Assembly (NCBI GenBank): GCA_003278305.1
Contig: QCFU01000007.1
Span: 1-64,000, forward strand
Direction of reading: 5' to 3'
Source of the DNA: Prochlorococcus sp. AG-363-M21
Lineage (GTDB): Bacteria; Cyanobacteriota; Cyanobacteriia; PCC-6307; Cyanobiaceae
DNA: 64,000 nt
Part shown: positions 47,363 through 51,160 of the stretch, one piece after another
Layout: each line of letters opens with the position of its first letter
Numbering within the stretch: the stretch's first letter is position 1
Notes under the pieces: model-generated
The model's input: only the letters and a program-made list of their open reading frames with translations
Database searches by the model: none
Told to the model about the DNA's origin: nothing
Translations under genes and position numbers: made by a program

Positions 47363-50167
47363 TTAATTATCTAAGCCAAATAATCTTTGTTCTGCCAATT
47401 CAGCTTGTGATTGAGCATCTAATAACTTCATTTTACATTCGGCAACAACTTTTTCAGGTGCTTTATTTGCAAAATTAGGATTAGACAATCTATCCGAAAG
47501 TATAGAAATTTCTTTGTTTGCTTTAGATAAATCTTTTTGTAAGCGATCTCGTAATGCTTGAATATCAACTAATCCTTCAATAGGCAAAATAACCTCAAGG
47601 TCACCTGCAACACCAGCCAAAACCTTTACAGCAGGCCTATCAAGAAGTTCGTCAGGATGAAAAACTTCTACTTTTTGAGCTTTTGTTAATACCTTGATCT
47701 CACTATTAGCTGCCTTAAGTGTTTTTGCAAGCGTTGTAGTTCTAGTTACAAAGCGTACAGGCACTTCCTGGGAAGGTTTCACGCCAGCTACTGCACGTAA
47801 ATTACGAACCAATCGAATGGATTCAAAAAGCTCTGCAAAAGAAAGCTCTAACTCTTCATTCAAAAAACTTTCTTCTAATTCAGGCCATAGTTGCAAGGCA
47901 AGTAGCTTTTGCTCGGGGAAACCAGTAATCCCATGCCATAATTCCTCTGACAAGTGAGGCATTAAAGGGTGAAGCATTACCAAAACCTCTCTCAAAACCT
48001 TAAAAATTACTTTTTGGGAAACTTTGCGATCACTTAATTCAGATTCTGTTGCTTGATGTGTGATATTTAATCGCGGTTTAATAAGTTCAAGATACCAATC
48101 ACAAAAATCATTCCAAATAAATTCATACAACCCTTTTGCTGCTTCACCAAGTGAATATTCTTGATATCTATTAGAAGTAGTCAAGTTGATTCTTGAAAGT
48201 CTCGATAAAATCCATTGATCTGAAAGACGTAATAAATCAAAGTCAATATCTTCTGATAACTCATTAAATGAAGTATCTCCAATATTCATCAAAGCAAATC
48301 TAGTGGCATTCCAAAGTTTATTCGCAAAATTACGCGAGGCTTCAACTGTGATAGAGGTATCATTAGATCGATCGTAATCAAGACGAATATCTTGACCAGC
48401 ACCTGCGACTTCCTTCACTAAAGCAAATCGCAAAGCATCTGTGCCATATCGATCAATTAATAAAAGAGGGTCAATTCCATTTCCAGCGCTTTTACTCATT
48501 TTGCGATTTTGCTCATCTCTAACCAGACCATGAATATAAACATCTTTAAATGGCATACGCCCAGTGAATAGACCTGCCATCATTGTCATTCTGGCGACCC
48601 AAAAAAAGATAATATCAAAGCCAGTAACAAGAGTACTAGTAGGGTACCAACATTCAAAATCTGAATGATTTTCATCTGGCCAACCTAATGTAGAAAAAGG
48701 CCATAAGCCACTTGAAAACCATGTATCTAATACATCTTCATCCTGTTGGATTTGCGCATCGTCTCCAAATTGTTGGCATGCTTTAAGATATGCCTGCTCT
48801 TTAGATATTGCAACAATATATGGCGTATTTTCCGTCACAGTATTATCAGTTTCACTGATCACAAACCATGCTGGAATGCGATGCCCCCACCATAATTGTC
48901 GACTTATACACCAATCACGAATACCCAATAACCAATCTCGATACACTTTCTCCCAACGATTTGGAACAAAATTTGGCTCACCTTTAGTCAAATGTGCACG
49001 ACATCTTTCTGCCATTGGCTCCATTTTTACAAACCATTGTGTTGAAAGCAGAGGCTCTACAGGGACCTTACCCCTATCCGAGAAAGGCACACTATGCCTA
49101 TACTTCTCTGTTTTGATCAGGAGTCCTTTTTCTTTCAAGCATTCAACAACTCGCCTACGCGCCTCAAAACGATCTAGTCCTTTAAATTGGCCAGCCTGAT
49201 TATTCATTGTTCCGTCTTTATTCATCACTGTAATTTGCGGTAAATTATGTCTCTGACCAATTGCAAAATCATTTGGATCGTGTGCAGGCGTTACCTTGAC
49301 ACAACCTGTTCCAAAAGTTTGGTCAACATGATCATCCGCAATGATAGGAATTTGTCGACCTATAAATGGAAGAGTTAATGTTTGCCCAACAAGATGTTTA
49401 TATCTATCATCCAAAGGATTTACTGCAACAGCAACATCGCCCAACATTGTTTCAGGCCTCGTCGTAGCCACCTGAAGATGAGTGATTGCTGATGATTCGG
49501 AAACAACAGATAATGGATATTGAAAATACCAAAGAAAACCATCAACTTCTTTCATTTCTACTTCCAAATCACTTACTGCCGAGCCTGAAGCAGGGCACCA
49601 ATTCACAAGATATTCTCCTCTATAAATCAAACCTTGGTCGTGCAATCTCACAAAGGCCTCTGAAACAGCATGACTCAATTTTTCATCCAAGGTAAACCTC
49701 TCTCTTTGCCAGTCAACTGAATAACCTAAGCGTCTAAGTTGATCGACGATTTTACCTCCACTTTGTGCCTTCCAAGCCAAGGCTCTTTTTAAGAAAGCAT
49801 CTCTACCAATATCTTCTCTAGTCAATCCCTCTTCTTTTAGCTGCTTTTCAAGAATTGTTTGAACTGCTATAGATGCATGATCAGTACCTGGTAAACACAG
49901 AACATTTTTTCCTTGTAATCGCTGATATCTAACTATCGTGTCAATTAATGCGGTATTAAAAGCATGACCCATATGCAAGCTACCAGTCACATTTGGCGGA
50001 GGAATTACAACTGAAAAAGGCTCGCCTTGCGCATTAGAGGCTGGATGAAAAGCACCAGACTCTTCCCAAATCCTTTGCCAACGAGTTTCTGTGCCCAAGG
50101 GGTCATAAACCTTGGGTAAAGCATCTAATGCTTTCAAAAAGCCCTCATTAAATGAATGATCTTTCAC
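47363..50167 (-). CDS. valS: Valyl-tRNA synthetase
   Basis: ValS charges tRNA-Val. The 934-residue class I synthetase has the HIGH-type motif HMGH at residues 65-68 ([15 protein letters not shown]), the editing domain, the KMSKS loop in [13 protein letters not shown], and a C-terminal coiled coil ([17 protein letters not shown] through AELAEQRL) typical of ValS. A tRNA-Val gene lies 1 kb upstream at 51.1 kb. The TVP38-family gene follows closely on the same strand. Confidence 0.98.
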
Positions 50168-50233: not shown

Positions 50234-50689
50234 TCAGCTATTCTCTGAAGATTTCCAAGGAATAGAAATAATTCCATCATGCACATCCCATTGATTTCTA
50301 TCTTCATGTACTTTTTCAAATAATCCAACCTTATTCAAAGCTGTTTCAACTTGATCAAAACGAGGCAATTCTCCAACATTCAAAGGCAGTACTATTACTT
50401 GAGAATCTGAAGGATCTGCCATCAGATGAATAAACTTATCCTCTAAAATTCTTTCAAAAAATAGTCTTCTCATGCGAACTGATAATTGTGAGCCTAAAGC
50501 TTCTACAAATAAACCAAGGCTCGCTTGATCTCCTGGAAGTCCACAATTCAAAGTCATCCAAATTAAAAACTTTACCCAACTATCTACTGTCCATAATGGT
50601 TGAAAGCAAGTTCTTTGATGACGCACAAGCTCAAATAAAGCAAACTCAAATAGCTTTGCTTGAATAATTGATTTATCTATTTTTTCCAT
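50234..50689 (-). CDS. Conserved-looking protein of unknown function
   Basis: I do not recognise this 151-residue protein. It is soluble and mostly helical at the start (IIQAKLFEFALFELVRHQRT, WVKFLIWMTLNCGLPGD, RMRRLFFERILED), then turns to strands (SQVIVLPLNVGELPRFDQVE) and ends in a tryptophan-containing DVHDGIISIPW. There are no metal motifs or signal peptide. It lies between valS and the A-type Fe-S homologue, all on the minus strand, 38 bases after the latter. Confidence 0.65.
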   Translation of the reverse strand: MEKIDKSIIQAKLFEFALFELVRHQRTCFQPLWTVDSWVKFLIWMTLNCGLPGDQASLGLFVEALGSQLSVRMRRLFFERILEDKFIHLMADPSDSQVIVLPLNVGELPRFDQVETALNKVGLFEKVHEDRNQWDVHDGIISIPWKSSENS

Positions 50690-50727: not shown

Positions 50728-51063
50728 TCATTTTCTGAATCCAGCACCACAAGCACATGTTTCTGCACCATGTGGAGTCGAAATCAAAAAACCTCCTCCA
50801 CTAATATCACCAAAATAATTCAACTTTAATCCGGCAAACATCTCTAATTGACTTTTAGGACCGTATAAAGTGATCCCATCTGCTCTAGCAATTGGAATTC
50901 CATTGTGATTTCCAGGCCTAATTCGAATATGCAACCAACCTTCTTGAAGACTATCTTCAAGGAAATCTAGATGCATAATCCCAGGAGTACCTGCAAAGGC
51001 AGATTGCCTAATTAGCTCAGCAACTGCAGGTTGAGTAATAGTTAAACTAAAAGCTTTTTGCAT
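50728..51063 (-). CDS. A-type Fe-S carrier homologue lacking the first cysteine
   Basis: A 111-residue protein of the IscA/SufA/ErpA family, which hold or pass on Fe-S clusters. The C-terminal ETCACGAGF carries the CxC pair (Cys103, Cys105), and SGGGFLIS matches the strand before it. The first conserved cysteine, in the usual GGCSG position, is absent: the region reads IRIRPGNHNGIP. I start at ATG 51063 because the open frame upstream runs into tRNA-Val. The gap to the tRNA is 15 bases, too small for a promoter, so the mRNA is probably cut from a tRNA-led transcript. Confidence 0.8.
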   Translation of the reverse strand: MQKAFSLTITQPAVAELIRQSAFAGTPGIMHLDFLEDSLQEGWLHIRIRPGNHNGIPIARADGITLYGPKSQLEMFAGLKLNYFGDISGGGFLISTPHGAETCACGAGFRK

Positions 51064-51078
51064 TAAGAAAAAAAGCAA

Positions 51079-51150
<72 letters not shown>

Positions 51151-51160
51151 ATGTATATCA

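Follow-up and report, generated by a model that had tools for sequence, protein, structure and literature searches.

A relocated, divergent IscA orthologue in Prochlorococcus with recurrent loss of cluster-ligand cysteines

The window analysed in this study, a stretch of 64 000 nt from Prochlorococcus sp. AG-363-M21, carries on the minus strand, at 50728–51063, a gene for a protein of 111 amino acids plus stop, which we identified as an orthologue of IscA. IscA is normally an iron–sulfur cluster carrier, in which the cluster is held by cysteines. The intact, ATG-initiated ORF occupies 50731–51063, followed by the stop codon at 50728–50730. At the three ligand positions the protein reads Leu-Cys-Cys, its only cysteines being Cys103 and Cys105 of a C-A-C motif (50749–50757, minus strand); the translated ORF thus agrees with the initial annotation, in which the C-terminal CxC was described as kept. 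Immediately upstream on the same strand lies tRNA-Val(tac) (51078–51151, minus strand), 14 nt from the ATG. Downstream, also on the minus strand, follow an ORF of 151 amino acids without assigned function (50234–50689), for which no Pfam match was detected up to E 1, and a gene at 47363–50167 which, from its sequence, we take to be valS, encoding valyl-tRNA synthetase. With valS two genes on and on the same strand, co-transcription of the tRNA and its synthetase is possible.

The window protein lies below the curated cut-offs for A-type carriers. It was not matched by PF01521 (Pfam Fe-S_biosyn) up to E 10, and the match of TIGR00049 (NCBIfam) to residues 59–110 was weak (27.4 bits; the cut-off is 58.8). 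The Cys-Xn-Cys-X-Cys motif is likewise incomplete, with Leu39 at the first position and only C103 and C105 in place. When the whole genome was searched with PF01521, the sole match was another protein, on contig C9, and the Pfam model matched only one of 11 picocyanobacterial family members, weakly. In a phmmer search against PDB, the top match of the window protein was IscA 1x0g (E 3.2e-6). Homologues were widespread: some match was detected in 148 of the 151 family genomes, being full-length in 138 and SufA-level or broken in 10, and the full-length matches reached E 7e-15 at the weakest. The presence of full-length homologues in 138 of 151 genomes indicates that the window ORF is not a chance reading frame. 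For comparison of residues we used a set of 127 sequences, composed of 125 of the 139 full-length matches and two further rows (G354 and G373); the 14 full-length matches outside the set were all among the more distant ones, of Synechococcus type. Three additional genomes were examined from their loci. A second sample, made up of the 80 named loci that ranked best among 381, overlapped in genomes with the 127-sequence set, and 17 IscA and 23 SufA-like cyanobacterial proteins served as the comparison set. A phage origin or spread of the gene was also considered and rejected, with no match among 50 697 phage records and no confirmed relative among 124 pattern hits in IMG/VR.

The absence of the first conserved A-type cysteine, noted in the initial annotation, was borne out by alignment, at a different place from the one given there. 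The segment RPGNHNG (residues 49–55; 50899–50919, minus strand) had been read as the GGCSG position. Alignments of 12, 24 and 171 sequences instead put Leu39 (codon CTT, 50947–50949, minus strand), in the segment EDSLQEGW (residues 36–43; 50935–50958, minus strand), in the column of the GGCSG cysteine, and orthologues read EDTCGEGW, EGGCEQW or SGSCETW at this loop. phmmer gave the same register, aligning the segment EGGCEQW in one orthologue to VPGGCSGFQY in AQ_1857. In the AlphaFold model (pLDDT 87.5), residues 37–43 form a loop between strands 29–36 and 44–50, and RPGNHNG is placed at the end of the following strand, one strand past the ligand loop. When conservation of the NHNG segment was checked among the 127 homologues, as the initial annotation had proposed, it was found to be variable: G51 and G55 were present in 125 of the 127, residues 52, 53 and 54 differed among homologues and were most commonly His, Leu and Ala, and His53 occurred in only five.

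Several lines of evidence place the family within the IscA lineage. In the tree, the family formed one clade (support 100) that grouped with cyanobacterial IscA (support 97), apart from SufA (support 96). The trees were built by a quick method on few alignment columns, and the stem of the clade was long (branch length 4.16), so that the placement in the tree is weak when taken by itself; it is backed by the profile comparison and by the neighbourhood. The profile match to IscA (1.6e-21) was stronger than that to SufA (2e-12). Among the picocyanobacteria, rpsL was located at 66 loci, of Synechococcus-type genomes, and at every one of them it lay directly downstream of iscA on the same strand (gap 21–256 nt). 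The same adjacency, with a gap of 54–278 nt, was seen in 13 of 17 IscA loci of other cyanobacteria, outside the family (L152–L166). On the upstream side, a gene that we take to be NAGPA-like was present on the same strand wherever such a gene was found (65/65 picocyanobacterial and 7/7 other loci). This rpsL site characterizes the family, while the window gene itself stands at the tRNA-Val site. A fold search with the predicted model gave IscA 1x0g as the best match (Z 11.9 over 104 residues), followed by SufA 2d2a (Z 11.1), E. coli IscA 1r94 (Z 11.0), DsrR (Z 10.0) and YneR (Z 8.2), so that the predicted fold is of the A type, closest in PDB to IscA and SufA. The window gene is therefore a divergent, fast-evolving picocyanobacterial orthologue of cyanobacterial IscA. 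Origin as an independent paralogue was rejected in favour of IscA orthology by the rpsL synteny. The earlier suggestion of a non-carrier paralogue accordingly holds in so far as the protein is a non-standard A-type protein and probably not a classical three-cysteine carrier, and fails as to paralogy.

The neighbourhood also revealed a relocation of the gene. Throughout the clade of 60 rows that includes the window sequence, iscA is gone from the rpsL site, where the following genes are presumably rpsL, rpsG and fusA. Within this clade, tRNA-Val was found upstream on the same strand in 43 loci, at a distance of 13–28 nt in 32 of them, and the common gene order was tRNA-Val, iscA, the 151-aa ORF and valS. 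Many genomes keep the 151-aa ORF between the iscA-like gene and valS, and it stays at the old site after iscA has gone.

The loss of cysteines was confined to this relocated clade: 30 of its 60 rows lacked one or two, compared with none of the 67 rows outside it, which comprise the 66 with rpsL found and one short contig showing the NAGPA-like gene only. Among the 127 sequences, the first position was occupied by Cys in 104, Phe in 16, Ser in three, Leu in two and Tyr in two. Cys103 was kept in 102, and was replaced in the other 25 by Ser (24) or Thr (one), while Cys105 was kept in all 127. The 16 sequences with Phe formed one clade (Phe-Ser-Cys, support 96), 15 of them at sites elsewhere and one (G093) still at the tRNA-Val site; these 16, plus two others that carry Ser or Tyr, retained a single cysteine at the three positions. 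In the sample of 80 named loci (the best of 381), almost all of them bearing a Prochlorococcus title, the first cysteine was lost in 26, the second in 42 and the third in none, and all three were kept in 33; Prochlorococcus marinus bv. HNLC2 and W8 were among the named loci without the first. By parsimony, the 171-row tree required seven changes at the first position and five at the second. The tree of named loci required 13 and five, respectively; it is poorly resolved, and five of the 13 changes were forced by well-supported branches. All 23 SufA-like proteins, including nine of picocyanobacteria, had three cysteines. The initial annotation held that orthologues with the cysteine would point to a local mutation or a sequencing error. 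Orthologues of this kind do predominate, and the 104 of 127 that keep the first cysteine mark its loss as lineage-specific; a one-off error is nevertheless not the explanation, since the cysteine is absent from 23 of the 127 and from 26 of the 80 named loci, on several branches. The change in the window protein is thus neither an error nor a new metal site at RPGNHNG, but a recurrent, lineage-specific loss of a ligand in a Prochlorococcus-type IscA orthologue.

The relatives with fewer cysteines are under purifying selection. By the Nei–Gojobori method, dN/dS was 0.08–0.34 among the 16 Phe-type sequences with one cysteine, 0.085 for a CTC/YSC pair and 0.06–0.21 within group g56 (CSC and SSC). 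Genes with three cysteines gave 0.04–0.23 (g17), 0–0.07 (g34) and 0.02–0.12 (g5, with one pair saturated). These values indicate a constraint somewhat below that on the genes at the rpsL site, yet far from neutral. Between the window copy and five relatives, dN/dS was 0.08–0.22; synonymous sites were saturated or nearly so, one pair being saturated, so that selection on the branch of the window gene itself is measured uncleanly.

The iscA-like gene is dispensable in some genomes. In G011, G085 and G128, the tRNA-Val site held broken remnants with stops (L082, L091 and L198), and in G038 no copy was detected at this site or elsewhere in the genome; completeness is only 69–74 % for two of the four. 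The source genome (G000), an incomplete draft of 26 contigs that is 70 % complete, contains a second copy of the gene, a Phe-type copy on contig C18 with one cysteine at the three positions (115–429; L051, 100–489). Ten of the 16 Phe-type genomes had the copy elsewhere together with a readable old site, and the old site was empty in eight, held the remnant in G011 and held the intact window gene in G000. The second copy in G000 could derive from another organism: the ValS of the window was closest to that of G016 (77 %), while a protein of C18, presumably desaturase-like, was closest to that of G001 (87 %), with no match in G016 and G066, both incomplete.

Taken together, we favour, with a probability of roughly 55 %, the reading that the window gene is a relocated iscA orthologue whose cluster site is not strictly required, with classical carriage performed by the SufA-like protein and a contact-based role retained. 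In the Prochlorococcus-type clade, iscA left its position ahead of the rpsL-rpsG-fusA operon; in most members it now follows tRNA-Val closely, with valS further on. On this model, the three-cysteine cluster site would no longer have been strictly required after the move. The first cysteine (Leu39 in the window protein) and Cys103 were lost repeatedly, with Cys105, the GGGF motif and the fold all retained. Such repeated loss, while selection keeps the protein, suggests that its job is probably independent of the usual cluster; the one-cysteine forms, in particular, are unlikely to be able to hold a classical cluster. The classical carrier job would fall to the second A-type protein, since the SufA-like protein with all three cysteines probably covers cluster carriage. 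IscA itself may keep part of its old role through contact with partners or apo-proteins, as an adaptor or iron-status regulator, without a three-cysteine cluster. By analogy, the window protein probably acts by protein contact, as DsrR, PdhI/YneR and the degenerate domain of NfuA do.

This preferred reading has to be weighed against continued carriage, in which the two CxC pairs of a dimer bind [2Fe-2S] or ferrous iron, perhaps helped by a thiol from a partner protein, for example IaiH, a HEAT protein. C103 and C105 in a dimer would supply four thiolates, which could hold a bridging cluster or coordinate iron, and the CxC is intact in the window protein, with Cys105 invariant among the homologues. 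PMC7058544 reports that Synechocystis IscA needs IaiH for a stable cluster and suggests that IaiH adds a cysteine. The 18 relatives described above with one cysteine (16 Phe-type and two with Ser or Tyr) speak against this explanation, those tested being under purifying selection, and we regard it as rather unlikely. Decay by genome streamlining, with iscA dispensable beside sufA and loss of ligands an early step towards pseudogene formation and deletion, would account for the three genomes with a pseudogene at the tRNA-Val site, for the absence of a copy from G038 and for the parallel losses of the first cysteine (13 changes on the poorly resolved tree, five of them forced). Cysteine-poor sequences, however, keep open frames and low dN/dS, and of the ten genomes in which the Phe-type copy is displaced and the old site can be read, eight have nothing at the old site, their second copy being intact. 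We regard decay as improbable.

The two remaining explanations concern the missing cysteine itself. Replacement of this ligand by His53 or Asn of RPGNHNG, as put forward in the initial annotation, has in its favour that the residues are present, and nothing more; the model places the segment a strand beyond the ligand loop and His53 is rare among homologues, which already largely refutes the proposal and leaves it very improbable. A sequencing or amplification error at codon 39 could be imagined in an incomplete draft of this kind. It is scarcely credible, given that CTT is more than one change away from TGT or TGC, that G028 independently reads EDPLDEGW and that further relatives have Phe, Ser or Tyr.

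The window protein resembles cyanobacterial IscA (Thermosynechococcus 1x0g; Synechocystis) in its fold, its clade, the rpsL synteny of its family, the GGGF motif and the C-terminal cysteine, and differs from it in lacking the first cysteine (relatives lack more), in its low identity (20–27 %) and in falling below Pfam detection. The SufA-like protein encoded in the same genome (contig C9, L053) also belongs to the A-type family, but has three cysteines, lies in a separate clade and scores above the Pfam cut-off. DsrR of Allochromatium vinosum (2k4z), reportedly a precedent for an A-type fold without the cysteines, has the IscA fold in common with the window protein, but belongs to a separate family, of sulfur oxidizers, and we claim no orthology between them. 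PdhI/YneR of Bacillus subtilis (9a4q), another protein without the A-type cysteines, shares the A-type fold and differs in lineage and partner, and no IscA origin is claimed for it. As described in PMC10090944, YneR, renamed PdhI, blocks its partner enzyme by occluding the active site of pyruvate dehydrogenase E1 and is thus an inhibitor. The degenerate A-type domain of NfuA, likewise without the conserved cysteines, promotes apo-protein binding according to PMC10301553; it is fused to a cluster-carrying Nfu domain, whereas the window protein stands alone. According to the review PMC7058544, Synechocystis IscA together with IaiH binds [2Fe-2S] in a stable manner, and cells that have lost iscA misread iron limitation. 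An iron-sensing phenotype is also reported for the laboratory strain Synechococcus PCC 7002.

According to PMC7058544 and PMC10301553, it is not settled whether A-type proteins serve mainly as carriers, as iron donors or as regulators. Closely related orthologues whose ligand cysteines number three, two or one, all under purifying selection, make it directly testable which function of IscA needs a cluster. A-type folds without cysteines are already known, and what is interesting here is that a graded series occurs in a single orthologous gene under selection. A further outcome is a picocyanobacterial protein overlooked by the Pfam model, which is why these genomes can look IscA-less. Among the papers listed in our literature searches, none dealt with cysteine loss in picocyanobacterial IscA, and in PMC11357015 IscA appears only in a reference. 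A more far-reaching idea, which we advance tentatively and consider rather doubtful, is that Prochlorococcus has a graded series of three-, two- and one-cysteine IscA in use, in which a carrier has turned into a cluster-free contact regulator, perhaps for iron economy. If this were true, selection would be keeping the second, non-carrier role of IscA.

The clade with the HNLC2 and W8 genomes, cited for the idea of iron economy, has also lost the first cysteine. At three loci (L213, L215 and L216, in G003, G011 and G065), genes that we take to be znu-like transporter genes lay near the iscA-like gene, and presumed CobW-like genes were present at L215 as well; three genomes are too few to support a link to zinc. 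A very divergent copy (L222, 7055–7393; branch length 1.55), with Tyr in place of the first cysteine, was detected at a third site in G025, a small genome with a contig of 1.58 Mb.
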